Assembly (NCBI RefSeq): GCF_027497235.1
Contig: NZ_CP114902.1
Location: 5,854,001-5,918,000 of the forward strand
DNA length: 64,000 nt
Direction: 5' to 3'
DNA from: Micromonospora sp. WMMD1128
GTDB taxonomy: Bacteria > Actinomycetota > Actinomycetes > Mycobacteriales > Micromonosporaceae
Part shown: positions 17,078 through 30,446 of the stretch, piece by piece
How positions within the stretch are numbered: the first letter of the stretch is position 1
Layout of the letters: the number at the start of each line of letters is the position of its first letter
Notes under the pieces: model-generated
What the model was told of the DNA's origin: nothing
The model's input: the letters and a program-made list of their open reading frames with translations, nothing else
The model's database searches: none
Made by a program: the position numbers and the translations under genes

Positions 17078-18095
17078 CCGGCAGGTCGAGCCGCATCTCC
17101 GCCGCTCGCATCGACTCGACCCGGAAGCCGCAGACCCACAGGAAGCGCGTGCTGCCGCCCTCGGCGAATCCGTGCGCCGACCGCACCCCGCACCGGGCCA
17201 TCTCGGCGGTCAGCGCGTTCACCAACCGTCGGCCGATGCCGAGTCGCCGGTATGCCGGCACGACCAGGATCCCGTCCAACACGATTTGATCCTGCTCGGG
17301 CACCGGATGCCCGAACAGCAACTCGTCGCTGCGCTCGTGTGCGCGCAGTTCGCCCACCAGCTCACCGTCGGGCAACTCGGCGACGAACCGCCAGGAGGTG
17401 GTCGGCAGCTCCGGGGCGAGGTGCCGACGGACCCGGAAGCCTTGCCGCACCCTTTCGCGAATCCGGTCGCGATCACGCAGCTCCCGGTCGAGGCGGTACG
17501 TCACCGCCGGCAGGGCGGTCCAGTAGCCGGCGGACAGGCTCGGCCAGTGCGCCCACCAGGCCCCCGGCCAGTCCTTCGGCTCACGCACCTCCCGGGCGTC
17601 CAGGTGCGCCGGGCAGTGCCGCCCCGCCGCGTCCCGCAGTTCCTCCTGCGGCGCCGCCAGCCCTCCGCCCGGCGCGCCGGGCCCCGTGGCTGGTTCCGGC
17701 GCGCCGGGCCCCGTGGCTGGTTCCGGCGCGCCGGACGTGACTGGCTCCGGCGCGACGTCCGGTGGTGGCGGCACGACGATGATCTGCCCGCCCGCACCGA
17801 TGACCAGCCGCTCGATGGTCCGGAAACTCGGGCCTGCCGACCGGCCAGAGGACCCACCAGCCGACCGGCCGACCGATGGGCTCGGATTTCCGGACTCGAT
17901 GCGCGCCAGGGTGGCCTGCGGCACCCCCGACCTCGCCGCCAGCTCGCGCTGGCTGAGATCGGCCGCCCGGCGTAACGCCCGCAGCGTCGCCCCCAGCTTG
18001 ATGGCCGCTCCGGTGGCCGGTCCGGTGGCCGGCCCGGTGGGATGCTCGACGTCGGTCACCACGCCATGCTCGACCGTCGCCGGCTGTTCCTCCAC
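17049..18095 (-). CDS. XRE helix-turn-helix / GNAT acetyltransferase fusion
   Basis: About 348 residues. After a Pro/Thr-rich lead, residues about 30-80 are an XRE HTH (LRALRRAADLSQRELAARSGVPQATLARIESGNPSPS) with a short extension ending FRTIERLVIGAGGQIIVVP. A linker with a 9-residue repeat (EPATGPGAP) follows. The C-terminal third is a GNAT domain: IVLDGILVVPAYRRLGIGRRLVNALTAEMARCGVRSAHGFAEGG carries the acetyl-CoA motif (RRLGIGRR). The start is uncertain: GTG 18095 or GTG 18059. It is antisense to its neighbours, overlaps the end of mqnB by 29 bases and splits mqnB from mqnD, suggesting insertion. Target and substrate unknown. Confidence 0.8.
   Translation of the reverse strand: MEEQPATVEHGVVTDVEHPTGPATGPATGAAIKLGATLRALRRAADLSQRELAARSGVPQATLARIESGNPSPSVGRSAGGSSGRSAGPSFRTIERLVIGAGGQIIVVPPPPDVAPEPVTSGAPEPATGPGAPEPATGPGAPGGGLAAPQEELRDAAGRHCPAHLDAREVREPKDWPGAWWAHWPSLSAGYWTALPAVTYRLDRELRDRDRIRERVRQGFRVRRHLAPELPTTSWRFVAELPDGELVGELRAHERSDELLFGHPVPEQDQIVLDGILVVPAYRRLGIGRRLVNALTAEMARCGVRSAHGFAEGGSTRFLWVCGFRVESMRAAEMRLDLPVNAGLMRRW
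17671..17734 (-). repeat. 27-bp tandem repeat in the XRE-GNAT linker
   Basis: Two exact copies of a 27-bp unit (17671-17697, 17698-17724) and a 10-bp partial copy, each starting with GGCGCGCCGG. It is in frame and encodes EPATGPGAP repeats in the interdomain linker. Confidence 0.88.
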
Positions 18096-18163
18096 CCCAC
18101 TCGTCCGCCTGTGGACAACCCTGTGGAAAAGCAGAGCCCCTGGGGACGAAGGGGTGCGCGGGC

Positions 18164-18558
18164 TGCCTAGAAACTTGATGACGTGAGTGGATCGGCCGCA
18201 GGCGGGCGGGCGCGCCGAGCCAGGGCCGAATCCCACGCCTGGCAGGGAAGCTCGACGCGGCCGGATTGACCCCGGCCCCATCCGACCCCGGCCGAACCCT
18301 CAACCCACCAACCGACCCCGACCGAACCCTCAACCCCACCCAACCGAACCTCAACCCCACCCAACCGAACCCCCAACCCAACCCAACCCACCCCGACCGA
18401 ACCCTCAACCCACCACCGACCCCGACCGAACCCTCGATCCCACCCAACCGACCCCTAACAGGATGAATCAACCCTGGCGAGGATTCGGTCGAGTCCCCCG
18501 ACGGCGGGGCGAAGCCCGTCCGGGGGCCGATTCATCTACGTCATCAAGTTTCTAGGCA
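18164..18558. mobile_element. 395-bp element with perfect 21-bp inverted repeats (element A)
   Basis: TGCCTAGAAACTTGATGA(CGT) at 18164-18184 is the exact reverse complement of 18538-18558. A further 10-15 bases inside each end match imperfectly (CGTGAGTGGATCGG against CGTAGATGAATCGG). The interior contains no convincing gene; it is made of degenerate ACCGAACCCTCAACCC-type repeats (about 18285-18460), strongly C/A on the + strand. No target-site duplication is visible. Related ends occur at 26834 and 28881. It could be a miniature non-autonomous transposable element; a terminator or regulatory hairpin is the alternative. Confidence 0.6.
18285..18460. repeat. ACC/AAC-rich tandem repeats with a G-quadruplex motif
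   Basis: Irregular tandem copies of CCGACCGAACCCTCAACC and CCCACCCAACCGAACC. At 18370-18389 the - strand reads four G-runs separated by TT (GGGTTGGGTTGGGTTGGGG), a canonical intramolecular G-quadruplex pattern. An open frame of prolines runs through it but is composition-driven. Confidence 0.75.
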
Positions 18559-18844
18559 CCCAAACCGCACCTCGCCGCGCGCCAGCTGCTGCTTGAGCTG
18601 GGTCTGGTCCACCCTGCACCTTCACCGCGGGGAACAATTCCTCGGCCTCCGTCAAAGCGGCACGGCCTGGACCCGGCACACTCCCTGGACCCGGCACACC
18701 CCTGGACCCGGCACTTCGAGCTGAACCCGCCACTTCGAGCTGACCGAGCTGACCCGGCAATTCGCGGTAAGCCCACGGCCTCGCAGGTCACATCGCGGAG
18801 CCGGGGCGGCGGGCGCTGGAGAGGGACGGAGCTACGGTGGGAGC
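18559..18844. other. Gene-free stretch with degenerate repeats upstream of mqnD
   Basis: Between element A and mqnD. It holds three copies of CCTGGACCCGGCAC (18666, 18684, 18701) and two of ACTTCGAGCTGA (about 18713-18745), a decaying repeat of 17-18 bases. A short stretch near 18565-18610 has the look of a dead coding remnant on the - strand. No intact gene is seen. Confidence 0.55.
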
Positions 18845-19675
18845 GTGGCGCTCTCCCTGGCGATCTCCCCCTGCCCCAATGACACGTTCGTCTTCGACGC
18901 CCTGGTGCACGGGCGGGTGCCCGGCGCACCTCCGGTCGAGGTGACCTACGCGGACGTGGACGTCACCAACACGGCCGCCGAGCGTGGCGCGTTCGATCTG
19001 GTGAAGGTCAGTTACGCGGCGCTGCCCTGGCTGCTCGGCGATTACCACCTGCTGCCCTGCGGGGGCGCGCTGGGCCGGGGCTGCGGCCCGCTGGTGCTGA
19101 CCCGGGGCGACCGGACCGACCTGTCCGGCGCGACCGTGGCGGTGCCCGGCGAGCGGACCACGGCGTACCTGCTGTTCCGGCTCTGGGCTACCGGGCAGAC
19201 GCCGAGGCGGATCGAGGTGGTGCCGTTCCACGAGATCATGCCGGGCGTGGCTGCCGGCCGGTACGACGCCGGTCTGGTGATCCACGAGGCCCGCTTCACC
19301 TACCCGCGGCACGGGCTGACCGCCCTGGTCGATCTGGGCGAGTGGTGGGAGAGCGACACTGGGCTGCCGATCCCGCTCGGCGCGATCCTGGCCCGCCGCG
19401 GTGCGGTCGACCCGGTCGAGGCCGCCGCGTGGGTCCGCGAGTCGGTCCGGCATGCCTGGGCCGACCCGGAGGCCAGCCGCGGGTACGTGCTCGCACACGC
19501 GCAGGAGATGGAGCCCGACGTGGTGGACCGGCACATCGGCCTCTACGTCAACGAGTTCACCGCCGACCTGGGTGAGGCCGGCTTCGCCGCCGTGGAGGCG
19601 CTGCTGGGCCGGGCCGCCGACGCCGGGCTCGTCCCTCAGACCTCCAGCTCGCGCGCCACCGCGTGGACCAACTGA
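18845..19675 (+). CDS. mqnD: 1,4-dihydroxy-6-naphthoate synthase
   Basis: 276 residues; the MqnD family converts cyclic dehypoxanthinylfutalosine to 1,4-dihydroxy-6-naphthoate in the futalosine menaquinone route. It begins LAISPCPNDTFVFDALVHG (family signature SPCPNDT) and has the periplasmic-binding-protein-like fold with VKVSYAALPWLLGDY, LLPCGGALGRGCGPLVL, VPGERTTAYLLFRLW and GLVIHEARFTY. GTG 18845 has TACGGT six bases upstream (possible leaderless start) with GGGAG too close to be a normal ribosome-binding site. Its 3' end overlaps the convergent cold-shock gene by 40 bases. Confidence 0.94.
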   Translation: MALSLAISPCPNDTFVFDALVHGRVPGAPPVEVTYADVDVTNTAAERGAFDLVKVSYAALPWLLGDYHLLPCGGALGRGCGPLVLTRGDRTDLSGATVAVPGERTTAYLLFRLWATGQTPRRIEVVPFHEIMPGVAAGRYDAGLVIHEARFTYPRHGLTALVDLGEWWESDTGLPIPLGAILARRGAVDPVEAAAWVRESVRHAWADPEASRGYVLAHAQEMEPDVVDRHIGLYVNEFTADLGEAGFAAVEALLGRAADAGLVPQTSSSRATAWTN

Positions 19676-20022
19676 GCGATCTTCTGCGCGGCCTTGCGGT
19701 CGGGGAAGCGACCCCGGCGCAGGTCCGGCTGGACCTTCGCCTCCAACACCTTGATCATGTCTTCGACGAGGCCGTGCAGCTCCTCCGCCGGCCGGCGGCG
19801 CAACTCCGCCACGGACGGCGGCGCCTCCAGCAGCTTCACCCCCATGGCCTGGGCGCCACGACGGCTGTCCACCACGCTGAAATCGACCCGCTGGCCACCT
19901 TTCAGGTCGGCGACACCCGCCGGTAGCGCGCCCTTCGGCAGGAACACGTCGCCACCCTCGTCACTGGTGACGAACCCGTATCCCTTGGCCGCGTCGTACC
20001 ACTTCACTCGACCCGTCGGCAC
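19636..20022 (-). CDS. Cold-shock domain protein with C-terminal extension
   Basis: 128 residues. Residues 1-66 are a cold-shock domain (GRVKWYDAAKGYGFVTSDEGGDVFLPKGALP), with the RNP1 motif KGYGFVTS and an RNP2-like DVFLP. About 60 extra residues form a charged helical tail (VAELRRRPAEELHGLVEDMIKVLEAKV...) typical of the longer actinobacterial Csp variants; it binds single-stranded RNA/DNA. It overlaps mqnD tail to tail by 40 bases, which could give antisense interaction between the two transcripts. Confidence 0.9.
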   Translation of the reverse strand: MPTGRVKWYDAAKGYGFVTSDEGGDVFLPKGALPAGVADLKGGQRVDFSVVDSRRGAQAMGVKLLEAPPSVAELRRRPAEELHGLVEDMIKVLEAKVQPDLRRGRFPDRKAAQKIAQLVHAVARELEV

Positions 20023-20050
20023 CTGTCGAACCCCGCTCCACTCGAACCGT

Positions 20051-20674
20051 CTACCCCTCCAAGGCTAGCCCGATGATCCGGTCTACCGCCTGCGGGAATT
20101 CGACAAGATCATCCAGCACCAGGTATGCGCCGGCCGCACTCAACTCGTCCACCGGGCAGGGGCCGGTCGCCACTCCCACGCCCGGGATTCCGGCCGCCCG
20201 CGCCGCGGCCATGTCGGCCACGTGGTCACCCACGTAGAGCGTCGCGCCGTGCTCCCGCAGCGCGGTCGCCTTCTGCTCGGCGAACAGGTCCCCGACCAAC
20301 TCGTCGACCGGCAGCCCGAGGTGGTCCAGGTGCAGCTTCGCCAGCCGCCCGATCTTGGAGGTCACCACCATCACCCGTCCGCCGCGCGCGTGCACCGCCC
20401 GGAGCGCGGCCTCCGCGCCCGGCATCGGCGTCGTCGGAGTGATCGCGTACGCGGGATAGAGCTCCCGGTAGAGCGTCACCGCCTCCTCGATCCGCTCCGG
20501 CGGGAACCAGTGTGCCAGCTCGGTACGCAGCGGCGGGCCCAGCCGGGACACGGCCAGATCCGCGTCCACCGGCACGCCCGTGCGCTCGGTCAACGCCCGG
20601 TACGCGGCGGCGATGCCGGGGCGGGAGTCCACCAGGGTCATGTCAAGGTCGAAGCCGACCATCAGCGGAGGCAT
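20051..20674 (-). CDS. HAD family hydrolase, phosphoglycolate phosphatase-like
   Basis: 207 residues with the HAD motifs: MVGFDLDMTLVDS (nucleophile and acid Asp), VMVVTSK (motif II Thr/Ser), a Lys in SKIGRLAKLHLDH, and YVGDHVADMAAARAAG (motif III/IV Asp pair). The cap of about 70 residues between motifs I and II marks the subclass I group. The substrate is not predictable. It sits upstream of the cold-shock gene on the same strand with a 28-base gap. Confidence 0.9.
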   Translation of the reverse strand: MPPLMVGFDLDMTLVDSRPGIAAAYRALTERTGVPVDADLAVSRLGPPLRTELAHWFPPERIEEAVTLYRELYPAYAITPTTPMPGAEAALRAVHARGGRVMVVTSKIGRLAKLHLDHLGLPVDELVGDLFAEQKATALREHGATLYVGDHVADMAAARAAGIPGVGVATGPCPVDELSAAGAYLVLDDLVEFPQAVDRIIGLALEG

Positions 20675-20711
20675 GCCGAGAACCTACCCAGCGGGCTAGC
20701 GTGGTACGACG

Positions 20712-23174
20712 ATGACCACCTCACTCGCCGACCACCTGCGGGCCCTCCCCGACGAGTCCCTGGCCGCCCTGCTCCAGCTGCGACCGGACCTCGTCGTGCC
20801 GGTGCCGGCCGATGTGTCCGCCCTCGCCCTGCGCGCCCAGTCCCGGGTCTCCGTGGCCCGGGCGCTCGACGGGCTGGACCAGTTCACCCTCCAGATCCTC
20901 GACGCCGCCCGGCTCACCCAGGGCCCCGAGGGCAACACCTCCACCGACGAGATCCTGGCCATGGCCACCGCCGGGCCACACCCGCCCGCCCCGACCGCCA
21001 TCCGCGCCGCGGTGGACCGGCTCCGGGCGCGGTTCCTGCTCTACGGCCCCGAACACGACCTGCACGTGGTGGGCGGCGTCGACGAGGTCTCCCCGTACCC
21101 GGCGGGGCTGGGCCGGCCGGCGGCGGAGCTGGACCCGCGCGCGGCGGCCCTGTGCGCGGACCCGGCGAAGCTGCGGCGGACGCTGCTCGCCGCGCCGCCC
21201 TCGGCCCGGGCGGTCCTGGACCGGCTCGCCGCCGGCCCACCGGTCGGCACCGTGGCTCCGGGCGCGCTGGAGGCCCCCGCCACCGGCGACCAGGACGTGC
21301 TCCCGCCCGACCTGGTCAACGGTGGCGCGCCCACCGGCTCACCGATCCGCTGGCTGGTCGAGCACCGGCTGCTGGTGCGGATGTCCGGCGGCCCCAACGG
21401 CACCGTCGAGCTGCCCCGCGAGGTGGGCCTGGTGCTGCGCCGCGACGCCGGTCCGCTCGGCCCGCTGCGCACCGGGCCGCCCGAGGTCTCCGGCCCGCCC
21501 CGGGAGGTCAAGGCCGTGGACTCGGCCGGCGCCGGGCAGACCATGGAGGTGGTCCGGCACACCGAGGCGCTGCTGGAGGCGCTTGTCGCCGAACCGGCCC
21601 CGGTGCTGCGCTCCGGCGGCGTCGGGGTACGCGACCTGCGCCGGCTCGCCCGCGGCCTCGGGCTGGACGAGCCGACCACCGCGCTGATCTTCGAGGTGGC
21701 GTATGCGGCGGGGCTGACCGGCGAGCTGGAACTGACCGGGTCGGCCACCACCCGGTACGGCGGTGACCAGCAGATCCTGCCCACCGGGGGCTACGAGGTG
21801 TGGCGCGCGGCGTCGCTCGCCCAGCGCTGGGAGCAACTCACCCGGGCCTGGCTGGCGATGACCCGCCAGGTGGGCCTGGTCGGCCAGCGGGACGACCGGG
21901 ACCGCCCGATCTCGGTGCTCTCCCCGGAGGCGGAACGCGCCGGCGCGCCGGCCGCCCGACGCGCCGTGCTCGCCGTGCTGGCCGACCTGCCGCAGGCCAC
22001 TGCGCCGACCCCGGACGAGGTGCTGGAGCTGCTCGACTGGCGGGCGCCCCGCCGGGCCCGGGGGCGGGAGACCGCCCACCGCGAGGTGCTGGCCGAGGCG
22101 GCCCGGCTCGGGGTGACCGGGCTGGGCGCGCTCACCACGTACGGGCGGCTGCTGCTGGCCGAGCTGACCGACGCCGACGAGCGGGGCGACGACCCGCTGG
22201 GGTTGCGCTCCGACGCCGAGTCGGGTGACCCGTCGACGGCGGTACGCGCGCTCGACGGGCTGCTGCCCGCTCCGGTCGACCACGTGCTCGTGCAGGCCGA
22301 CCTGAGCGTGGTGGTGCCCGGCCCGCCCGACCCGGCGCTCGCCGCCGAACTGGACGTGGTGGCCGAGCACGAGTCGGCGGGCGGGGCCAGCGTGCACCGG
22401 GTCACCACGGCGAGCATCCGGCGGGCCCTGGACGCCGGCTACACCGCCGACGACCTGCACGCGCTGTTCCGCCGCCGGTCCCGCACCCCGGTCCCGCAGG
22501 GGCTGACCTACCTGGTCGACGACGTGGCCCGGAAGCACGGCGGGCTGCGGGTCGGCTCCGCCGGTGGGTACGTGCGCAGCGACGACGAGGCACTGCTCAC
22601 CGAGGTGCAGGCGGACCGTCGACTGGAGTCGCTGGCGTTCCGCCGGCTGGCCCCGACGGTGCTTGTCACCCCGTACCAGGTCAACCGGATGCTGCTGGCC
22701 CTGCGCGACGCCGGGTACGCGCCGGTGCCCGAGGACGCCAGCGGCGCGACGGTGCTGGCCCGGCCGAAGACCCGGCGGGCGCCGGGCCGCAGCCCGGTCA
22801 CCGGCCGCGCGGTGGACCCGCTGGCCACGCCGAAGCTGCCGATGCCCCGCCTGCTCGGCGTGGTGGAGCAGATCCGCCGGGGCGACATGGCGGCCCGGGT
22901 GGCGCGGCGGGCGCCGGCGGTGGTCCGTGGCGCGGCGACCACCGGCCCGACGCCGGCGCACGGGCACGGCGACGCGCTGGTCGTGCTCCAGCAGGCGGTA
23001 CGGGACAAGGCGCTGGTCTGGGTGGGTTACGTCGACGCGCACGGGGCGACCGCGTCCCGGCTGGTCCGGCCGGTGTCGATCGGCGCCGGCTATCTGCGCG
23101 CCGAGGACGACCGCACCGAGATGCTGCACACGTTCGCGCTGCACCGGATCACCGCCGCCGTGCTGGAGGAGTGA
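20712..23174 (+). CDS. Helicase_C_3 (XPB/Ssl2-like N-terminal) protein
   Basis: 820 residues. The start MTTSLADHLRALPDESLAALLQLRPDLVVPVPADVSALALRAQSR is the signature of the actinobacterial 'helicase C-terminal domain' family (Helicase_C_3), which lacks Walker motifs. A DNA-binding/winged-helix middle part follows, then DHVLVQADLSVVVPGPPDPALAAELDVVAEHESAGGASVHRVTTASIRRALDAG, and a WYL-like C-terminus (VWVGYVDAHGATASRLVRPVSIGAGYLRAED). The family is usually near an XPB helicase, as here (24597), implying a joint role in DNA repair or transcription-coupled processes; this is inference. Confidence 0.88.
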   Translation: MTTSLADHLRALPDESLAALLQLRPDLVVPVPADVSALALRAQSRVSVARALDGLDQFTLQILDAARLTQGPEGNTSTDEILAMATAGPHPPAPTAIRAAVDRLRARFLLYGPEHDLHVVGGVDEVSPYPAGLGRPAAELDPRAAALCADPAKLRRTLLAAPPSARAVLDRLAAGPPVGTVAPGALEAPATGDQDVLPPDLVNGGAPTGSPIRWLVEHRLLVRMSGGPNGTVELPREVGLVLRRDAGPLGPLRTGPPEVSGPPREVKAVDSAGAGQTMEVVRHTEALLEALVAEPAPVLRSGGVGVRDLRRLARGLGLDEPTTALIFEVAYAAGLTGELELTGSATTRYGGDQQILPTGGYEVWRAASLAQRWEQLTRAWLAMTRQVGLVGQRDDRDRPISVLSPEAERAGAPAARRAVLAVLADLPQATAPTPDEVLELLDWRAPRRARGRETAHREVLAEAARLGVTGLGALTTYGRLLLAELTDADERGDDPLGLRSDAESGDPSTAVRALDGLLPAPVDHVLVQADLSVVVPGPPDPALAAELDVVAEHESAGGASVHRVTTASIRRALDAGYTADDLHALFRRRSRTPVPQGLTYLVDDVARKHGGLRVGSAGGYVRSDDEALLTEVQADRRLESLAFRRLAPTVLVTPYQVNRMLLALRDAGYAPVPEDASGATVLARPKTRRAPGRSPVTGRAVDPLATPKLPMPRLLGVVEQIRRGDMAARVARRAPAVVRGAATTGPTPAHGHGDALVVLQQAVRDKALVWVGYVDAHGATASRLVRPVSIGAGYLRAEDDRTEMLHTFALHRITAAVLEE

Positions 23175-23177
23175 CCC

Positions 23178-23411
23178 CTATTCGCCGTTGCGCCGCAGCG
23201 TGCCGATCACCGAGACGGCCAGCAGCAGCGCGAACGCCGCACCGGCCGACTCGCCGACCGAGTCGACGAAGCCCTGCCGCTGCACGAGCAGCCCGAACAG
23301 GAACCACCCGAACACGCCCACGGCGGCGACCGCGTAACCGACCATCGCCGCTGTGGAGACCTCCTGCTGCGTCCGCTCGTCCTCGGGAAGCACGTCCTGA
23401 TCGACGGTCAT
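23178..23411 (-). CDS. Small membrane protein, unrecognised
   Basis: 77 residues with two hydrophobic segments (about 21-39 and 53-70) and a polar N-terminus TVDQDVLPEDERTQQEVSTA. ATG 23411 is preceded by GGGAGGG. It is convergent with the Helicase_C_3 gene, separated by 3 bases. No family recognised beyond small actinobacterial membrane proteins near the XPB locus. Confidence 0.72.
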   Translation of the reverse strand: MTVDQDVLPEDERTQQEVSTAAMVGYAVAAVGVFGWFLFGLLVQRQGFVDSVGESAGAAFALLLAVSVIGTLRRNGE

Positions 23412-23547
23412 GGCCAGTCCCTCCCCGCCCCGTGGTGGACCCGGCTTCCACAGTGACACCGACCGGACCGCGCGGACAGGGGTTAAAACCCTGATCCGGG
23501 TGGTCCGGTCACGGGTAGGGCGGGGCCGGCTGCGGTTTCGGGGCGGC

Positions 23548-24423
23548 TCAGGTGCCGGGACGGTGACCGATCACCACCACGCGGGTGCCGATCGAGCCCA
23601 GCTCCCAGAGGCGTACCGCGTCGCGGTGCAGCAGGTTGACGCAGCCGTGCGAGCCGATCGCGCCGTTGTGCAGGTAGGTGGTGGTCTCGTGGAAGCCGAT
23701 CCCGCCGTTGAACCGCTGCCAGTAGGGCAGCCACACCTCGTACGGGTTGGACCACTCGCGCAGGTTCCGCCCGGCCACCGAGTAGGTGCCGGCCGGCGTG
23801 GCGTACCCGGACATGCCGGTGCGGGTGACGGTCGGGCCCAGCACCACCTTGCCGCCGCGCATCGCCCACACGGTCTGCCGGGTCAGGTCGACGCAGAAGG
23901 TGAGCCGGGAACCGGCCCGGCAGCGCGACACGTCGGTGCCGGCCAGCCGCTTCGCCACGTCGTACGTGGTGGGGCCGGCGCGCCCGGAGGCGGGGCTGAT
24001 GCCGTACCGGCTCTGGAATTTCTTGATCGCGGCGCAGTCGGCGGCGGACTGCGTGCCGTCCACGCTCAGCGTCCCGAAACCGCCCAGCCGACTCAGGTAG
24101 CTCTCCACGGCCTTCTGGTGCTCCCCCTGCGGGCACCCGGCGGGCTGGCTCGGGGTGGCCTTCGGCTTCGGCTTCCTGGTCGCGGTCGGTGACCGGGTGG
24201 GTTTCGGCGTGGCCGTCCGGCTCGGCTGCGCCGACGGGGACGTCGCCGACCGCTCGGGCGTGGGCGGCGCGCTCGCCCCCGATGCTCCCTCCGTCAGCCC
24301 GACCGGCGCGGGGGTGGTGCCCCCGGCGCCCTCCGCCTGCGGATCGAGCGCACACGCGCCGACGCCGACCAGCACGACCACTGCCAGGCCGACGACCCGG
24401 GCGAGAAACCGGACACGCTGCAT
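23548..24423 (-). CDS. L,D-transpeptidase lipoprotein
   Basis: 291 residues. The signal segment ends in a lipobox-like VGAC (Cys24), so it is probably a lipoprotein on the outer face of the membrane. A Thr/Pro/Ser-rich linker (25-95) is followed by a peptidoglycan-binding-like helical domain (about 98-160; VDGTQSAADCAAIKKFQSRYGI) and a YkuD catalytic domain with GFHETTTYLHNGAIGSHGCVNL; Cys261 is the nucleophile. Role: 3-3 cross-linking or remodelling of peptidoglycan. Divergent from XPB. Confidence 0.92.
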   Translation of the reverse strand: MQRVRFLARVVGLAVVVLVGVGACALDPQAEGAGGTTPAPVGLTEGASGASAPPTPERSATSPSAQPSRTATPKPTRSPTATRKPKPKATPSQPAGCPQGEHQKAVESYLSRLGGFGTLSVDGTQSAADCAAIKKFQSRYGISPASGRAGPTTYDVAKRLAGTDVSRCRAGSRLTFCVDLTRQTVWAMRGGKVVLGPTVTRTGMSGYATPAGTYSVAGRNLREWSNPYEVWLPYWQRFNGGIGFHETTTYLHNGAIGSHGCVNLLHRDAVRLWELGSIGTRVVVIGHRPGT

Positions 24424-24596
24424 GGGCCCTCCCTGGACAGTTGTCCCGCTTTCTAGACGTGTGGGGTGAGTATGACGTTGCCTGTCCAGCGAGACTTTTT
24501 TCCGACCTCGCCGGGCGTGCAACACTTGATGGTCCGCCTTCGGCAGGTCAGCCGCCGTGCGGGCACGGATCCCGGGCGATGCGAGGAGAACGCGGC

Positions 24597-26276
24597 GTGA
24601 GCGGTGGACCACTGATCGTGCAGTCGGACAAGACGCTGCTGCTGGAGATCGACCACCCGGACGCGCAGTCCTGCCGGATGGCCATCGCGCCCTTCGCGGA
24701 GCTGGAACGCTCGCCCGAGCACGTGCACACCTATCGGCTGACGCCGCTGGGCCTGTGGAACGCGCGGGCCGCCGGCCACGACGCGGAGGGCGTGGTCGAC
24801 ACCCTGATCAAGTATTCGCGTTATCCGGTGCCGCACGGGCTGCTCGTCGACGTGGCCGAGACGATGGACCGGTACGGCCGGCTCCAGCTCGCCAACGACC
24901 CGGCGCACGGGCTGGTGCTGCGCGCCCTGGACCGGGTGGTGCTGATCGAGGTGGCGAAGAGCAAGAAGCTCGCGGGCATGCTCGGCGCGAAGCTCGACGA
25001 CGACACCATCGCAGTGCACCCGTCCGAGCGGGGCCGGCTCAAGCAGGCGCTGCTGAAGCTGGGCTGGCCGGCGGAGGACCTGGCCGGCTACGTCGACGGC
25101 GAGGCGCACCCGATCGAGCTGGCCGAGTCCGGCAAGGACGGGGGCAGGGCGTGGACGCTGCGCTCGTACCAGCGCGAGGCGGTGGAGGCGTTCTGGGCCG
25201 GCGGCTCCGGCGTGGTGGTGCTGCCCTGCGGCGCCGGCAAGACGCTCGTCGGCGCGGCGGCGATGGCCGAGGCGAAGGCGACCACGCTGATCCTGGTGAC
25301 GAACACGGTGGCCGGCCGGCAGTGGAAGCGGGAGCTGATCGCCCGCACGTCGCTGACCGAGGAGGAGATCGGCGAGTATTCGGGCGAGCGCAAGGAGATC
25401 CGCCCGGTCACCATCGCCACGTACCAGGTGCTCACCTCGCGGCGCGGCGGCGCGTTCACCCACCTGGACCTGTTCGGCGCCCGCGACTGGGGCCTGGTCG
25501 TCTACGACGAGGTGCACCTGCTGCCCGCGCCGATCTTCCGCTTCACCGCGGACCTCCAGGCCCGCCGCCGGCTCGGCCTCACCGCGACGTTGGTACGCGA
25601 GGACGGCCGGGAGGGCGACGTGTTCAGCCTGATCGGCCCGAAGCGGTACGACGCGCCGTGGAAGGACATCGAGCAGCAGGGCTGGATCGCGCCGGCGGAG
25701 TGCACCGAGGTACGGGTGACGCTCACCGACGCGGAGCGGCTGGCGTACGCGACGGCGGAGGCGGAGGAGCGCTACCGGATGGCCGCGAGCGCCCGCACGA
25801 AGCTGCCCGTGGTGCGGGCCCTGGTGGAGCGGCACCCGTCCGAGCAGGTGCTCGTCATCGGCGGCTTCCTGGACCAGTTGCACCAGCTCGGCGAATATCT
25901 GGACGCGCCGATCGTGCAGGGTTCCACCACGAACAAGGAACGCGAGCGGCTGTTCGACGCGTTCCGGGCCGGCTCGTTGCGAACCCTGGTGATCTCAAAG
26001 GTGGGCAACTTCTCCATCGACCTGCCGGAGGCGGCGGTGGCGATCCAGGTGTCCGGCACGTTCGGGTCGCGGCAGGAGGAGGCGCAGCGGCTGGGCCGGG
26101 TGCTCCGCCCGAAGGCCGACGGCCGGCAGGCGCACTTCTACACCGTGGTCTCCCGGGACACCATCGACACCGAGTACGCCGCGCACCGGCAGCGGTTCCT
26201 CGCCGAGCAGGGGTACGCGTACACCATCGTGGACGCCGACGACGTCCTCGGCCCGCCGCTGCCGACGGTCGAGTAG
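24597..26276 (+). CDS. DNA repair helicase XPB
   Basis: 559 residues, superfamily 2 helicase of the bacterial XPB type. Residues 1-130 form the N-terminal damage-recognition-like region (LIVQSDKTLLLEIDHPDAQSCRMAIAPFAELERSPEHVHTYRLTPLGLWNARAAG). Motif I is LPCGAGKTLVG, motif II DEVHLLPAP, motif III LTATLVREDG, and late motifs are SKVGNFSIDLPEA and QRLGRVLRPK (VI). GTG 24597 has GAGGAGAAC upstream. It unwinds DNA 3'-5' in related bacteria; the partnership with the upstream Helicase_C_3 protein is inferred from neighbourhood. Confidence 0.94.
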   Translation: MSGGPLIVQSDKTLLLEIDHPDAQSCRMAIAPFAELERSPEHVHTYRLTPLGLWNARAAGHDAEGVVDTLIKYSRYPVPHGLLVDVAETMDRYGRLQLANDPAHGLVLRALDRVVLIEVAKSKKLAGMLGAKLDDDTIAVHPSERGRLKQALLKLGWPAEDLAGYVDGEAHPIELAESGKDGGRAWTLRSYQREAVEAFWAGGSGVVVLPCGAGKTLVGAAAMAEAKATTLILVTNTVAGRQWKRELIARTSLTEEEIGEYSGERKEIRPVTIATYQVLTSRRGGAFTHLDLFGARDWGLVVYDEVHLLPAPIFRFTADLQARRRLGLTATLVREDGREGDVFSLIGPKRYDAPWKDIEQQGWIAPAECTEVRVTLTDAERLAYATAEAEERYRMAASARTKLPVVRALVERHPSEQVLVIGGFLDQLHQLGEYLDAPIVQGSTTNKERERLFDAFRAGSLRTLVISKVGNFSIDLPEAAVAIQVSGTFGSRQEEAQRLGRVLRPKADGRQAHFYTVVSRDTIDTEYAAHRQRFLAEQGYAYTIVDADDVLGPPLPTVE

Positions 26277-26354
26277 CCCGGCTTCCGGTGTTCCCGGCGT
26301 CCGTCCACAGTGGCAGAATCGGGCACCGTCACTGGAACACCGGAAGGGGCCCGA

Positions 26355-26648
26355 GTGAAACGCCGCATCCTGTCCGCACTGACGCTCGCCACCGTCGGCC
26401 TTGCCGGCGCGGCCGTGGCGCCCACGCCGGCCTCGGCGAGCGACGCGCCCGGTTTCGTCTGCAACCTCACCCAGAACACCTGGCTGCGGGACCAACCGCA
26501 CGGCGGCGTGCTGCGCACCCTGACCGCCGGGCGCGGGTTCCGCGCCCACGGGGGCTGGGCCGAGGACAACGACGCCTGGGTGTACGGCCACGGCGCCGAG
26601 TACCCGTCGATCGACGGCTGGGTGCCGCTGGGCAACACCACCTGCTGA
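26355..26648 (+). CDS. Secreted small SH3-like protein
   Basis: 97 residues. A Sec signal (KRRILSALTLATVGLAGAAVAPTPASA, cleavage after ASA) precedes a mature domain of about 68 residues with VCNLTQNTWLRDQPHGGVLRTLTAGRGFRAHGGWAEDNDAWVYGHGAE, an SH3b-like pattern, and two Cys (near the mature N-terminus and the last residue) that could form a disulfide. GTG 26355 follows GAAGGGG. Such proteins bind cell-wall or surface ligands; the actual ligand is unknown. Confidence 0.82.
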   Translation: MKRRILSALTLATVGLAGAAVAPTPASASDAPGFVCNLTQNTWLRDQPHGGVLRTLTAGRGFRAHGGWAEDNDAWVYGHGAEYPSIDGWVPLGNTTC

Positions 26649-26970
26649 TTCGGGCTGCTGATCAGGGCAGCGGAGGGGACGACCGAGGTGCGAGACGGCC
26701 GTCCCCTCCGAGGCGCGTCAGCCGCGAGGTTGCAAAGCTGCGGGTCGATGACGTCGTCGTCTCGACAAAAGCCACGTCAACGGCGTGCGCAGCAGCCCCG
26801 ACGGCCCGGACGGGGCTGCCTTCCGGTCCCTGCAAACTTGATGGCGTGGATGGCTCAGCGGATGCCGATCAGGCGGCGCCCAGTGTTCGCAGCACTTACT
26901 GACGCGCCGCGCATCCAGGTTAGACGGTCAGTTACCGCCCTCTCACCGTTGGGTTGAGTACGCTGCCTCG
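26649..26970. other. Intergenic stretch: terminator, then left inverted repeat of element B and a leaderless-type promoter
   Basis: No intact gene. It contains a terminator hairpin (26671-26710), GC-rich sequence to 26830, the inverted-repeat arm 26834-26860, and the sequence TACGCT-6-GTG leading into the DUF3800 gene. GC falls noticeably after about 26900. Confidence 0.6.
26671..26710 (+). terminator. Terminator hairpin after the SH3-like gene
   Basis: CGGAGGGGACG (26671-26681) pairs exactly with CGTCCCCTCCG (26700-26710), 22 bases after the stop codon. Confidence 0.75.
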
Positions 26971-27684
26971 GTGCTGCTCGGCTATCTCGATGAGTCCTAC
27001 AGTGCGGATTGGTACTACATGGCTGCCCTGCTGTGTGACGGCACAGGAGCGCAAGCGATCACTACCGCGCTGGACGATGTCATCATCAAAGCCGTCAAGA
27101 GCCACGGCGTCGCCGAGGACGCCGAGCTGCACGGATATGAGCTGTTCCAGGGTGAAGGTTGGTGGCAGGATCTTGCTCCCCGCGCCCGGCTCGGTGTCTA
27201 CAACGACGCGTTCCAGGCGATCGGTCAACATGCAAGAGCGATCATCCTTCGCGGGGTCCATTCCGCAGGGCTGCGGCAGCGATACCTCACACCGGAACCG
27301 CCGCACTCGATTGTTCTCCTGCATCTACTGGAGCGGATTGACGACTACGCCAGATCCCAGGGAGAACATGTCCTGGTCATCGCCGACGAGGTCGGTGAAC
27401 AGGCAAAACACCGGTCAGACATGGCGATGTACCGCAGGTCTGGCACCTGGGGATACCGGGCGAAGAGGCTGACGCAAATCGTTGACACATTGCACTTCGC
27501 TCCATCGAGCGCTTCTCGCCTCGTCCAAGCGATCGATCTGGTCACCTTCCTGTACCGCCGCATGGAGTGCCACACGGAGACCACCTTGAGAGCCACCCGG
27601 GCCAACGACAACCTGTGGGCGCGCATAGAACCCAAGGTGCGGCATCGCCAGTGCTGGCATCCCGTCGCCCAGCAGCAGCGATAG
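26971..27684 (+). CDS. DUF3800 domain protein
   Basis: 237 residues. DUF3800 landmarks: GYLDES at the N-terminus (adjacent Asp-Glu), ELHGYELFQG (Glu/His), VLVIADEVGEQ (Asp-Glu) and a late SRLVQAIDLVTFLYRR helix with Asp. This spacing of conserved acids would suit a metal-dependent nuclease-like fold, but the family has no settled function. GTG 26971 lies six bases after TACGCT with no ribosome-binding site, so translation is probably leaderless. Codon use is less GC-biased than in neighbours, implying horizontal transfer. It ends in a strong terminator (27694). DUF3800 genes are frequent in mobile and defence-like regions. Confidence 0.85.
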   Translation: MLLGYLDESYSADWYYMAALLCDGTGAQAITTALDDVIIKAVKSHGVAEDAELHGYELFQGEGWWQDLAPRARLGVYNDAFQAIGQHARAIILRGVHSAGLRQRYLTPEPPHSIVLLHLLERIDDYARSQGEHVLVIADEVGEQAKHRSDMAMYRRSGTWGYRAKRLTQIVDTLHFAPSSASRLVQAIDLVTFLYRRMECHTETTLRATRANDNLWARIEPKVRHRQCWHPVAQQQR

Positions 27685-27693
27685 ATGCACGAA

Positions 27694-27713
27694 GGCCCCG
27701 CGTAAGCGGGGCC
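27694..27713 (+). terminator. Terminator hairpin after the DUF3800 gene
   Basis: GGCCCCGC-GTAA-GCGGGGCC, a perfect 8-bp stem with a tetraloop, ten bases after the stop. It could also serve the convergent GntR gene. Confidence 0.8.
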
Positions 27714-27842
27714 CAAGGCGGGTTCGGAAGAGAACTTCCTGCACCCATCATAGCGAGCCCCGACGAGGACAGACAGCTTTCCCTGAGTCCGAACCTCGCG
27801 CCTCACCCGATGGACGCCCTCTGCCTGATCTTCTACCGGCGC

Positions 27843-28070
27843 TCAGCTTCGAGGCAGATCGGCGACGAAGACGCCACGGCCGGGACGCCCCACCAGCAGG
27901 CCCTGCTCCCGCAGCCGCGCGACGGCTCGGCTGATCGTGGACTGCGACACGTCATAGTCGTCCGCGAGCTTTCGTCCGGAGGGAAGCTGAGAACCCGGCG
28001 GATAGGTGCCGTCCTTGATCTTCTTTGACAGGTCAGCGAGCAGCTCATCCATGGTGGGCGGGATAGGCAC
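27843..28070 (-). CDS. Minimal GntR-family regulator
   Basis: 75 residues consisting only of a GntR winged helix: LADLSKKIKDGTYPPGSQLPSGRKLADDYDVSQSTISRAVARLREQGLLVGRPGRGVFVAD. There is no effector domain; it resembles the short KorSA-like or antitoxin-like GntR proteins of actinobacterial mobile elements. GTG 28070 has AAGGGG upstream. It faces the DUF3800 gene convergently. Two TGACATAGGTG direct repeats upstream (28147, 28181) are candidate binding sites. Confidence 0.85.
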   Translation of the reverse strand: MPIPPTMDELLADLSKKIKDGTYPPGSQLPSGRKLADDYDVSQSTISRAVARLREQGLLVGRPGRGVFVADLPRS

Positions 28071-28146
28071 GTCGGGCCCCTTGCAGTCGGTTGGCCCGGC
28101 CAGTATCGATCAAGACGCTCGACAGAGGCAACGCATGTAGCACGGG

Positions 28147-28191
28147 TGACATAGGTGGGTAGATAACTCGGAGACGTGCTTGACATAGGTG
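28147..28191. promoter_or_regulatory. Two TGACATAGGTG direct repeats, candidate GntR operators
   Basis: TGACATAGGTG occurs at 28147-28157 and 28181-28191, start to start 34 bases (about three helical turns), in the AT-richer region between the divergent GntR and DivIVA-like genes. Confidence 0.55.
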
Positions 28192-28318
28192 ACTCGGTAG
28201 CAATACCGTCGCTCTCGGTGATGCGGTGCTGTTGCGGTCGGTTGGCGCCTCTCGTACCGGTCTCGCATCGCCGTCGGGACCCCACGCATCCGCGACCCTC
28301 TCGAAGGGCGGTCACCTC

Positions 28319-28594
28319 GTGCGCAACCTGTTCCGCCGGCCGACCCGCCGGCCCGACGAACCCCCACCGCCGTACCGCTCTCCGCTCCGTCCCGCGCAGG
28401 TGCGGGAACGCTGCTTCACCGTGCGCCGGCGCGGGCTCGACCCGGTCGAGACCCGCGCCTTCCTGCACCGCGTCGCCGACGAACTGGCCGTCGCGCAGGC
28501 CACCGTGGTCGCGTTGCGGGAGGAGAACGTACGCGTCAAGAACGCGCTCCGCGCCTGGCAGAGCGCCCAGTCGGCGCGGCACCGCTACCGATGA
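28319..28594 (+). CDS. Small DivIVA-domain protein
   Basis: 91 residues. The core RPAQVRERCFTVRRRGLDPVETRAFLHRVADELAVAQATVVALREENVRVKNALRAW is a DivIVA N-terminal motif followed by a short coiled coil; full-length DivIVA/Wag31 is far longer, so this is a stand-alone mini version. The N-terminus is basic and Pro-rich. GTG 28319 follows AAGGGCGG. It overlaps the next gene by ATGA. Possible membrane-curvature or polar role; inference only. Confidence 0.78.
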   Translation: MRNLFRRPTRRPDEPPPPYRSPLRPAQVRERCFTVRRRGLDPVETRAFLHRVADELAVAQATVVALREENVRVKNALRAWQSAQSARHRYR

Positions 28595-28860
28595 CCGAAC
28601 GTTGGGTGATCCACCTGCCGGTGACCGCGCCGGACCTGCACCGGGCGCGCATCTTCGCGCGTACCGCCGCCCGGGTGCTGGCCCAGATCAGCGCCCGGGT
28701 CGAGCCGGGCGGGGTGACCGTGTCAGCGGAGGACGCGCAGTGCGTACGCCATTGGGTCTTCTGCGATCGGCCGTTGACGGACGGCGGTGGGCGATGTGCG
28801 CTGCCGGTGGACCACGTCTCGGCGTGCGCCCGACGCGCGCCCTGGCTCCGACGACGCTGA
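28591..28860 (+). CDS. Hypothetical protein coupled to the DivIVA-like gene
   Basis: 89 residues, basic (many Arg), start ATGA overlapping the previous stop. It has VIHLPVTAPDLHRARIFARTAARVLAQISARVEPGGVTVSAEDAQCVRHWVFCDRPL and two further Cys near the C-terminus (RCALP, SACARR), possibly a metal site. No family recognised. The stop codon falls inside the right inverted repeat of element B. Confidence 0.65.
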   Translation: MTERWVIHLPVTAPDLHRARIFARTAARVLAQISARVEPGGVTVSAEDAQCVRHWVFCDRPLTDGGGRCALPVDHVSACARRAPWLRRR

Positions 28861-28931
28861 TCCATCCGCACCATCAAGTTTCTAGTCAACCGACCGCATA
28901 CCAACCTCGGGTTGAAGAGAGGGAGGCGCAG

Positions 28932-29174
28932 ATGAGGTACACGGCCACTTGCGTGCGCTCGGGCGGCTGGTGGGCGATCACCGTCCCCGAGGTCACCGGC
29001 GTGTTCTCCCAGGCACGGCGTCTCGACCAGGTCGAGGGGATGGCCCGCGAAGCCATCGCTCTGCTCCTCGACGTCGACCTGGGGAGCGCAAGGGTCGAGG
29101 TGCGGCCCGAGATGCCCGTCGTCAGAGGCGGTGGGTGTGCGGCGGGGCCGGGTGCGCGGGGTTGGCGTGGATGA
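28932..29174 (+). CDS. HicB-like antitoxin, apparently C-terminally truncated
   Basis: 80 residues. Residues 1-62 are a HicB/DUF1902-like fold: MRYTATCVRSGGWWAITVPEVTGVFSQARRLDQVEGMAREAIALLLDV, then VEVRPEMPV. Related actinobacterial proteins, as I recall them, continue with a helical and HTH part of 50-60 residues; here the reading is lost to a Gly/Ala-rich tail that overlaps the convergent gene by 53 bases. No hicA-like toxin neighbour is visible. ATG 28932 has GGGAGGCGC upstream. It is adjacent to the right end of element B, so truncation may be linked to that event. Confidence 0.65.
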   Translation: MRYTATCVRSGGWWAITVPEVTGVFSQARRLDQVEGMAREAIALLLDVDLGSARVEVRPEMPVVRGGGCAAGPGARGWRG

Positions 29175-29838
29175 GGATCCGGGCGCCGGCGGATAGCGGC
29201 GCGAGCAGCCACTTCAACGGCTGCTCGTGCTCGGCCGGGTCGACGAGCAGGCGGTTACCGGCGCGCAGGTCGAGTTGCCCGGCGATCTCCGCGGCCAGTC
29301 GCCGCCACGCGCCGAAGCTGGTGCCGTCCGCGGTGGCCGGGTCGGCCGGGTCGACGGCGGTGTAGTCCGGCGGGTCGGCGGGGTGCCGCGACACCTCGGC
29401 CGACCAGTCCAGCCAGCCCGCCGGCACCGCGTCGAGCGCGCCGGGGCCGGTGCCGACCAGGTAGCGGTGCGTCCCCTCGGGTACGTCCTCCAGCCAGTCG
29501 TCGAGGCGGTCCGGGGTCACGAACACCGCGTCGTAGGGCCGGTCCGCGCCCGGCTCCAGCACCGGCAGCCCGGCCAGCGCCCGGGGCCGGAAGGAGACCG
29601 TGAGCCCGACCGACCAGGCCCCGAGCAGCACCGCCGCGGCGCGCCAGTGCGGCGGCAGCAGCACCGCCACCCGGTCGCCGGGGCGTAGCCCGCAGCCGTC
29701 GCGCAGCAACCCGGCGCTGCGGGCCGTCCAGGCGCCCAGCTCCGACGCGGTCAGCTCGGCGCGCTCGCCGGTGGCGTCGTCGAGGTAGCTGAGCAACGGC
29801 TCGTCGGTGGTGACGGGGGTGGGCGCGGGCGCTGTCAT
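29122..29838 (-). CDS. TIGR03089-like protein (partial AMP-ligase fold)
   Basis: 238 residues matching the N-terminal portion of AMP-dependent synthetases without the catalytic loop: LTASELGAWTARSAGLLRDGCGLRPGDRVAVLLPPHWRAAAVLLGAWSVGL, then GTSFGAWRRLAAEIAGQLDLRAGNRLLVDPAEHEQPLKWLLAPLSAGARILI. This layout is that of the actinobacterial TIGR03089 family, of unknown function. ATG 29838 follows GGGAGGAGC; the longer frame to 29871 begins in the preceding intergenic DNA. Confidence 0.82.
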   Translation of the reverse strand: MTAPAPTPVTTDEPLLSYLDDATGERAELTASELGAWTARSAGLLRDGCGLRPGDRVAVLLPPHWRAAAVLLGAWSVGLTVSFRPRALAGLPVLEPGADRPYDAVFVTPDRLDDWLEDVPEGTHRYLVGTGPGALDAVPAGWLDWSAEVSRHPADPPDYTAVDPADPATADGTSFGAWRRLAAEIAGQLDLRAGNRLLVDPAEHEQPLKWLLAPLSAGARILIHANPAHPAPPHTHRL

Positions 29839-29867
29839 CGGACGTGCTCCTCCCTGGCGGGGTCGCC

Positions 29868-30446
29868 TCACCCTAGCCGGGCGAATCGGTCCACCAGGAG
29901 AGCCAGGCGTCGCTCGTGGTCGGCCCGCCGGAGCCGCCCGTTGCGCATCAGCGTGATCAGGCCGTGCAATCCACTCCAGAACGTCTCGGTGAATGTCCCC
30001 AGGTCGTTGTCCCCGGCGAACGGGCGCAGGGTCTCGGCCAGTTGGGCGAAGCCCCGGGCCAGGTCGACCGGGACGTCCTGGGTGGCGAAGGGCAACTCGA
30101 CGGCGAGGGTGAACATCGCGTCGTAGAGGGCGGGCCGGCGCTCGGCGAACGCGACGTACGCCCGGGCGACGTCGGCCACCGCGCGGCGCGGGTCGGTCGC
30201 GGCGGTCCGGACGGCGGTGAGGTCGTCGGCGAGGTCCCCGAAGCCTTCCACGGCGACCGCCGCCATGATGGCGTCCTTGCCCTTGAAGTGGCTGTAGAGG
30301 ACGGGCTGGCTGTATTCGATCTCGGCGGCGAGCCGGCGGGTGGTGACCGCGTCCCAGCCCTCCGACTCGGCCAGCTCGCGGGCCGTGGCGACGATCGCCC
30401 GCTCGCGCTCCGCCCGCTCCCGCTCCCGGCGCGCCTGAATCGACAT
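29868..30446 (-). CDS. TetR family transcriptional regulator
   Basis: 192 residues. The N-terminal HTH is clear (IVATARELAESEGWDAVTTRRLAAEIEYSQPVLYSHFKGKDAIMAAVAVEGF), followed by a TetR_C-like helical ligand domain. It is transcribed away from a DUF4267 gene, and the region between holds two CTAGC-N3-GCTAG palindromes that are probably its operators, so it likely represses itself and the divergent gene. Confidence 0.92.
   Translation of the reverse strand: MSIQARRERERAERERAIVATARELAESEGWDAVTTRRLAAEIEYSQPVLYSHFKGKDAIMAAVAVEGFGDLADDLTAVRTAATDPRRAVADVARAYVAFAERRPALYDAMFTLAVELPFATQDVPVDLARGFAQLAETLRPFAGDNDLGTFTETFWSGLHGLITLMRNGRLRRADHERRLALLVDRFARLG

Follow-up and report, generated by a model that had tools for sequence, protein, structure and literature searches.

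Two inward-facing repeats around a 2-kb gene block in Micromonospora are probably solitary members of a dispersed inverted-repeat family

The two inverted repeats that face each other across some 2 kb of a Micromonospora chromosome are best read as two unconnected solitary arms from a repeat family that is dispersed in this genus, and the genes between them as something other than cargo, a reading to which we give a probability of about 0.75. The DNA analysed, here called the window, is a stretch of 64,000 nt that covers positions 5854001-5918000 of the 6.81-Mb chromosome of Micromonospora sp. WMMD1128. An earlier note had taken the repeats for the ends of a mobile cassette with four genes. 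Very probably there is no mobile cassette, because scattered copies of the repeat flank mostly ordinary resident genes, and a false claim is thereby removed. The repeat family itself, with arms of ~28 nt, looks real, widespread in Micromonospora and undescribed; among open-licence PMC papers, none was found on such a family in the genus.

The resemblance of the two arms reported in the earlier note is genuine. By direct reading, the left arm AAACTTGATGGCGTGGATGGCTCAGCG (26834-26860, + strand) and the right arm AAACTTGATGGTGCGGATGGATCAGCG (28881-28855, - strand) differ at three of 27 positions and match at the other 24, and a repeat search returned the inverted pair 26817-26860 / 28855-28898 at 75% over 44 nt. 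With improved limits (Table 1) the arms are 31 nt each and 25/31 identical. Also borne out is the core shared with element A, an inverted doublet elsewhere in the window: AAACTTGATGRCGTG occurs twice in element A and twice at the arms, four matches in the window at up to two mismatches, compared with 0.04 expected and with a count of four reached by 0/100 shuffled controls. It is the repeat family that exceeds chance, not the likeness of the left and right arms to each other. When the arms were compared with the 34 others of the genome (28 from doublets and six single), the left arm agreed with five of them at 27-28/31 positions and with its supposed partner at 25/31; the right arm, too, is closer to five of the 34 (26-27/31) than to the left arm. 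Because the left arm is nearer to five other arms than to its partner, the 24/27 match is a family resemblance. No decayed partner was found beside the left arm in 26862-27842 or 26277-26826 (best 17/29, within the null range), and none above the null beside the right arm.

Table 1. Features of the window discussed in the text
Feature	Position	Strand	Basis or remark
Element A, closely spaced inverted doublet (391 bp by the present limits)	18166..18556	.	between divergent genes
Helicase-like gene, left synteny anchor	24618..26276	+	
Small, apparently secreted protein	26355..26648	+	between helicase and left arm
Left solitary arm, variant CTGCAAACTTGATGGCGTGGATGGCTCAGC	26829..26859	+	pattern scan, arm comparison
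DUF3800 gene	26971..27684	+	PF12686, 44.6 bits, cut-off 21
Minimal GntR DNA-binding protein, 75 aa, a resident chromosomal gene	27843..28070	-	PF00392, 60 bits
Small DivIVA-domain protein, a resident chromosomal gene	28226..28594	+	TIGR03544, 24.1 bits, cut-off 22
89-aa protein without family, a resident chromosomal gene	28591..28860	+	kept in 11/11 relatives
Right solitary arm	28856..28886	-	overlaps stop codon (28858-28860) of 89-aa gene

The enclosed genes are those described before: a DUF3800 gene of lower GC (61.3%, vs 72.4% for the window), a minimal GntR protein, a small DivIVA-like protein and a protein without family. Against the Pfam DivIVA profile the third of these scores 16.6 bits, under the cut-off of 28, and the 89-aa protein has zero matches in Pfam, NCBIfam and PADLOC at E 0.01. 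The DUF3800 gene was also considered as a defence gene, and this was set aside for want of a PADLOC match. To the left lies a helicase-like gene, presumably of XPB type, followed by the small secreted-protein gene, which adjoins the helicase in the relatives G008, G012 and G006 as well.

The locus was compared with that of 11 relatives, which were fetched as the best matches to it and are not a random sample. The GntR and 89-aa genes stand no more than 800 bp apart in 11/11, a DivIVA-like frame is present in 9/11, and the helicase lies within 6 kb of this block in 8/11 of the stretches; G006 has it at a distance of ~20 kb, and for G014 and G015 it falls beyond the fetched stretch. A three-pattern arm scan, which recovers both window arms, found arms on both sides of the block in 0/11 relatives. 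Arms stand solely to the left in four (G008, G002, G024, where the arm is degenerate, and G010, where there are two) and solely to the right in one (G004), and in six the scan found none at the block (G013, G012, G006, G011, G015 and G014). The same gene order, which the earlier note had itself named as grounds for rejection, thus exists without the pair of arms, and the description of the interval as a 2-kb cassette fails at this point, since the GntR and 89-aa genes stay at the site in every relative fetched.

The left and right arms come and go separately. The G004 arm (L167:5295-5322) overlaps the 89-aa gene's stop codon and starts there just as its counterpart does in the window, yet it is of a different variant, CTATGGAGCTGATGACGTGAACGACTCA. 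The left-side arm precedes the small secreted gene in G008 and follows the same gene in the window; the left arms need not, therefore, be one insertion. Inversion of the block through recombination between arms was considered and rejected, its orientation relative to the helicase being constant in the relatives compared. Roughly 26649-27858, the part that holds the left arm and the DUF3800 gene, found no alignment at the corresponding place in any relative, so that, compared with the 11 fetched, this genome alone has a DUF3800 gene here. Only G006 among them carries a DUF3800 gene close to the block (50% amino acid identity); it lies on the opposite side and in the opposite orientation, and no family arms were found in the fetched stretch that would bound it. 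A similar hairpin was seen by eye just 3' of the stop codon of both DUF3800 genes (window:27685-27760 and G006 L169:5680-5770), as if the gene were travelling with its own terminator, to judge from the two sequences.

A search for the end sequence over the whole genome, the check that the earlier note had called for, found CCTASAAACTTGATG 38 times when one mismatch was allowed, against 0 for the reversed control (37 against 5 with a looser core). Thirty of the 38 arms stand in 15 close inward-facing pairs, six are single and two are the arms at 26829-28886. Fourteen of the 15 doublets were read (the pair at 3980544 was left out) and span 65-391 bp. They combine conserved arms, most commonly CCTA(C/G)AAACTTGATGRCGTRRAYGRNTCA, with variable interiors that, by BLAST within this genome, are mutually unrelated except at sites 386353 and 1199629; one arm counted as single, at 3120713, has a visible decayed partner. 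The whole 2.1-kb interval is, by comparison, single copy in the genome, its remaining matches being short pieces. At the site of element A, family arms were present in 6/7 relatives fetched there. The interior of element A (window:18290-18450) consists, by eye, largely of imperfect CCCAACCGAACCCTCAA-type repeats.

The family occupies gene junctions. Of 22 sites in this genome, made up of the 14 doublets, both arms at 26829-28886 and the six single arms, 12 are convergent, eight tandem, one divergent and one unresolved, and the 21 resolved ones are all between genes. Convergent junctions are therefore enriched (12/21 resolved sites vs 7/41 junctions in the window; Fisher p 0.002), as judged with a crude, home-made gene caller that on checking missed the DUF3800 and GntR genes. 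A further set of loci gave 15 convergent of 28, which does not stand for 28 independent sites because both arms of some doublets are included in it. When four doublet sites were followed into relatives, family members were found in 2/4, 2/7, 0/5 and 2/4 of them; at a 2/4 site one relative has another arm type, and at the 2/7 site one member is degenerate and one is without an inverted partner. Even in relatives at 90-95% identity the intergenic DNA is unalignable, so that neither an empty site resolved to the base nor a duplicated target could be seen. At the convergent junction 1510326-1510687, for example, comparison with L379 and L383 gave zero alignable intergenic sequence at a coding identity of ~91-94%. 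At this one junction, the pattern suggests fast replacement of junction DNA in Micromonospora. A second inverted repeat, formed by TTGATCAAG(A/G)(A/G)GTTTGCGTCA and, 15-25 nt away, its complement, was noticed at convergent junctions of G021, G047 and G012 (L384:330-485, L388:330-1060 and the right junction of L165, 7660-7990). It looks like a terminator-like hairpin and occupies sites that hold the ~28-nt repeat family in other genomes.

Across the genus, TGATGNCGTNAACGANTCA at up to one mismatch was found in 107/160 Micromonospora genomes, the reversed control giving 0 in all 160, and the variant of this genome, CTASAAACTTGATGRCGT, at up to two mismatches in 52/160; about one third of the genus is without the motif as searched. 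Among 300 genomes of the taxonomic family, 78 have a match. Five of the matching genomes, each with a single match, belong to other genera, and two of the 300 match the reversed control, so that occurrence outside the genus was taken as chance. A scan of viral contigs with TGATGNCGTNAACGANTCAG returned two contigs with one match each. The arm variant differs from genome to genome: the type of this genome is AAACTTGATG, that of G004 and G002 is GGAGCTGATG, and that of G086 is GCATCAATGA; further variants are CTACCAACTTGATGTCGTAAACGAATCA in G142, CTTTCGAGCTGATGTCGT... and CTGTCGAGCTGATGTCGT... in G107, and CTACGAACTTGATGGCATCAATGAATCA in G086. In G107 a region (L335, L336 and L337; C1:4981000-5042000) holds seven near-identical arms, CTTTGGAGCTGATGTCGTAA..., on one strand and without a close partner, several of them at intervals of ~5.3-5.4 kb that recall a long tandem array.

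Several genomes hold repeated copies of one doublet. Twenty doublets were read in G142, of which 12 are 101 bp long, and eight of these 12 share their interior and ~20 nt of flank. Outside the arms the eight are alike at 87-108/185 positions, compared with 64-76 in the wrong orientation; mean information falls from ~1.9 bits in the nearly invariant arms to 1.0 in the interior and near flank and ~0.5 farther out, against 0.35 in random columns, figures slightly lifted by choosing the orientation that maximises likeness. One 101-bp unit recurs in 4/6 stretches read from G086, with unrelated surroundings, and a 77-bp doublet occurs twice in G063 (L402 and L403) with shared flanks, the copies being 92% identical over 152 bp. 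Such patterns are what copying of the doublet as a unit would leave in sequence. The G063 pair is a good place for defining the true ends of the unit.

The usual unit of the family is a close inverted doublet with ~28-nt arms and a short, variable interior, which, most likely, an arm-recognising enzyme would copy in trans to new gene junctions, by analogy with MITEs and REPINs. Solitary arms, the two at 26829-28886 among them, would be the halves left after decay or loss of a partner. The GntR, DivIVA-like and 89-aa genes belong to the resident chromosome, and the DUF3800 gene would have been gained separately by this genome, as a piece with boundaries of its own. Plain copying from a single master would leave the mostly unrelated interiors in this genome unexplained. 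A more elaborate scheme, which we put forward tentatively and consider less likely than not, is that Micromonospora has kept REPIN-like doublets without any Y1 transposase, the arm-recognising enzyme copying them between junctions while the arms of any one genome evolve in concert and the interiors are swapped freely, occasionally taking in whole genes where arms are distant, as here and in G107 and G008.

The cassette deserves a fair hearing. Its arms would be true ends, and a recombinase acting in trans would move the four genes; their inward orientation and 24/27 match are what such ends would have, and the DUF3800 stretch is low in GC and absent from the gap in relatives. The nearness of the arms is also unusual, since two solitary inward-facing arms would fall within 2,058 bp with a probability of 0.4% (eight solitary arms) or 1.0% (twelve), under a uniform-placement model from which real arm placement departs, and several relatives carry arms in this stretch. 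As for other pairs with cargo, which the earlier note had wanted sought, genes do lie between distant arms elsewhere, one in G107 (744 bp apart) and, at the element A site of G008, a frame that we take to be TPR-like (1,365 bp apart). Three of the four genes are nevertheless at the same place in relatives that do not have both arms, each arm is nearer to unrelated arms than to the other, and the single-copy interval contains no recombinase gene (ORFs; Pfam and NCBIfam searches), which makes the cassette very improbable. From the earlier proposal of a mobilisable repeat family with cargo there remains one family, genome-wide, mostly in inverted pairs and apparently dispersing, but not the 2-kb interval as its cargo unit. 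Less improbable, and still unlikely, is that the doublets are immobile, acting either as terminator hairpins or as sites bound by a chromosomal protein and maintained at gene ends by selection, with the two arms serving two junctions. Against this speak clear dispersed copies, whose surroundings are unrelated in G086 and whose flanks are shared in G063 and G142, the tandem and divergent sites, element A included, and the roughly one third of the genus in which the motif was not met. Within-pair matching of arms is, moreover, no better than between-pair matching in this genome (p 0.20) or G142 (p 0.28), so that base pairing as such is not preserved there, although it is better in G107 (p 0.0004). 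In its favour are the excess of convergent junctions, the far stronger conservation of arms than of interiors, the occurrence of other inverted repeats at the same junctions in relatives, and orthologous sites that keep a member while its variant changes, as at element A and at the stop codon in G004.

The remaining alternative, an ordinary REPIN family mobilised by RAYT, is the least probable of the three. The presumed mover of REPINs is a Y1 transposase, RAYT. A profile search for Y1_Tnp (PF01797) found none in this genome or in 26/30 genus genomes, the negative ones comprising 12/16 chosen as motif-bearing and 14/14 chosen as motif-poor; the matches came from four of the 30, all among the 16 motif-bearing genomes, and the same search was positive in 5/14 control genomes. 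Nor was a transposase recognised by eye in wider arm intervals of G008 (L343), G107 (L396) and G086 (L395), where the contents were a TPR-like frame along with tandem repeats, a gene of membrane-protein type, and GC-rich repeats. Folded as DNA, the arm of this genome's type shows no evident hairpin (z 0.27), and among three other variants (z -4.07, -1.50 and -1.17) only the first clearly folds. PMC3116915 describes REPINs as extragenic inverted doublets of REP arms in which the arms are conserved and the spacers vary, with solitary arms left as remnants and with tandem clusters. The Micromonospora elements share with them, and with the GTAG-tagged REPs of Pseudomonas and E. coli, the inverted doublets, variable spacer, solitary arms, tandem clusters, extragenic position and many copies, and also genome-specific variants. 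They differ in that doublets reach 391 bp, that the Y1 transposase is missing from this genome and most of the genus genomes searched, and that the arm hairpin appears lost in the variant of this genome. CTAC, which is the complement of GTAG, may stand at the end of a Micromonospora arm, but the G107 variants begin with CTGT or CTTT.

The significance of the family lies in its being a genus-wide, REPIN-like inverted-repeat family in Actinobacteria without a detectable RAYT, so that the spread of REP-like doublets without the usual transposase is now testable in a genus with 160 genomes. CGTC-tagged REPs offer another comparison: in PMC3733652 they are described as palindromic, extragenic and mostly dimers, are said to lack a dedicated transposase, and are reported from Proteobacteria, Chlorobi, Bacteroidetes, Spirochaetes and Thermotogae; its main text mentions neither Actinobacteria nor Micromonospora. 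The Micromonospora arms have no CGTC tag; their ends read CCTAC/CCTAG and ...TCA. A search of Rfam at E up to 1, covering eight loci from relatives and window 17500-29900, gave nothing near the gathering score. MITEs, including the Correia elements of Neisseria, are short, have terminal inverted repeats and no coding capacity, and occur as dispersed copies. The Micromonospora doublets resemble them in all these traits, with dispersed copies of one unit found in G142, G086 and G063 and not in the genome studied here, where interiors are mostly unrelated; a further difference is that no parental insertion sequence with the same ends was found in the few wider intervals read, and no target duplication is defined. 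With no Y1 transposase in this genome and no fitting Rfam family, the Micromonospora family is filed, by its looks, beside REPINs and MITEs and as a member of neither group.
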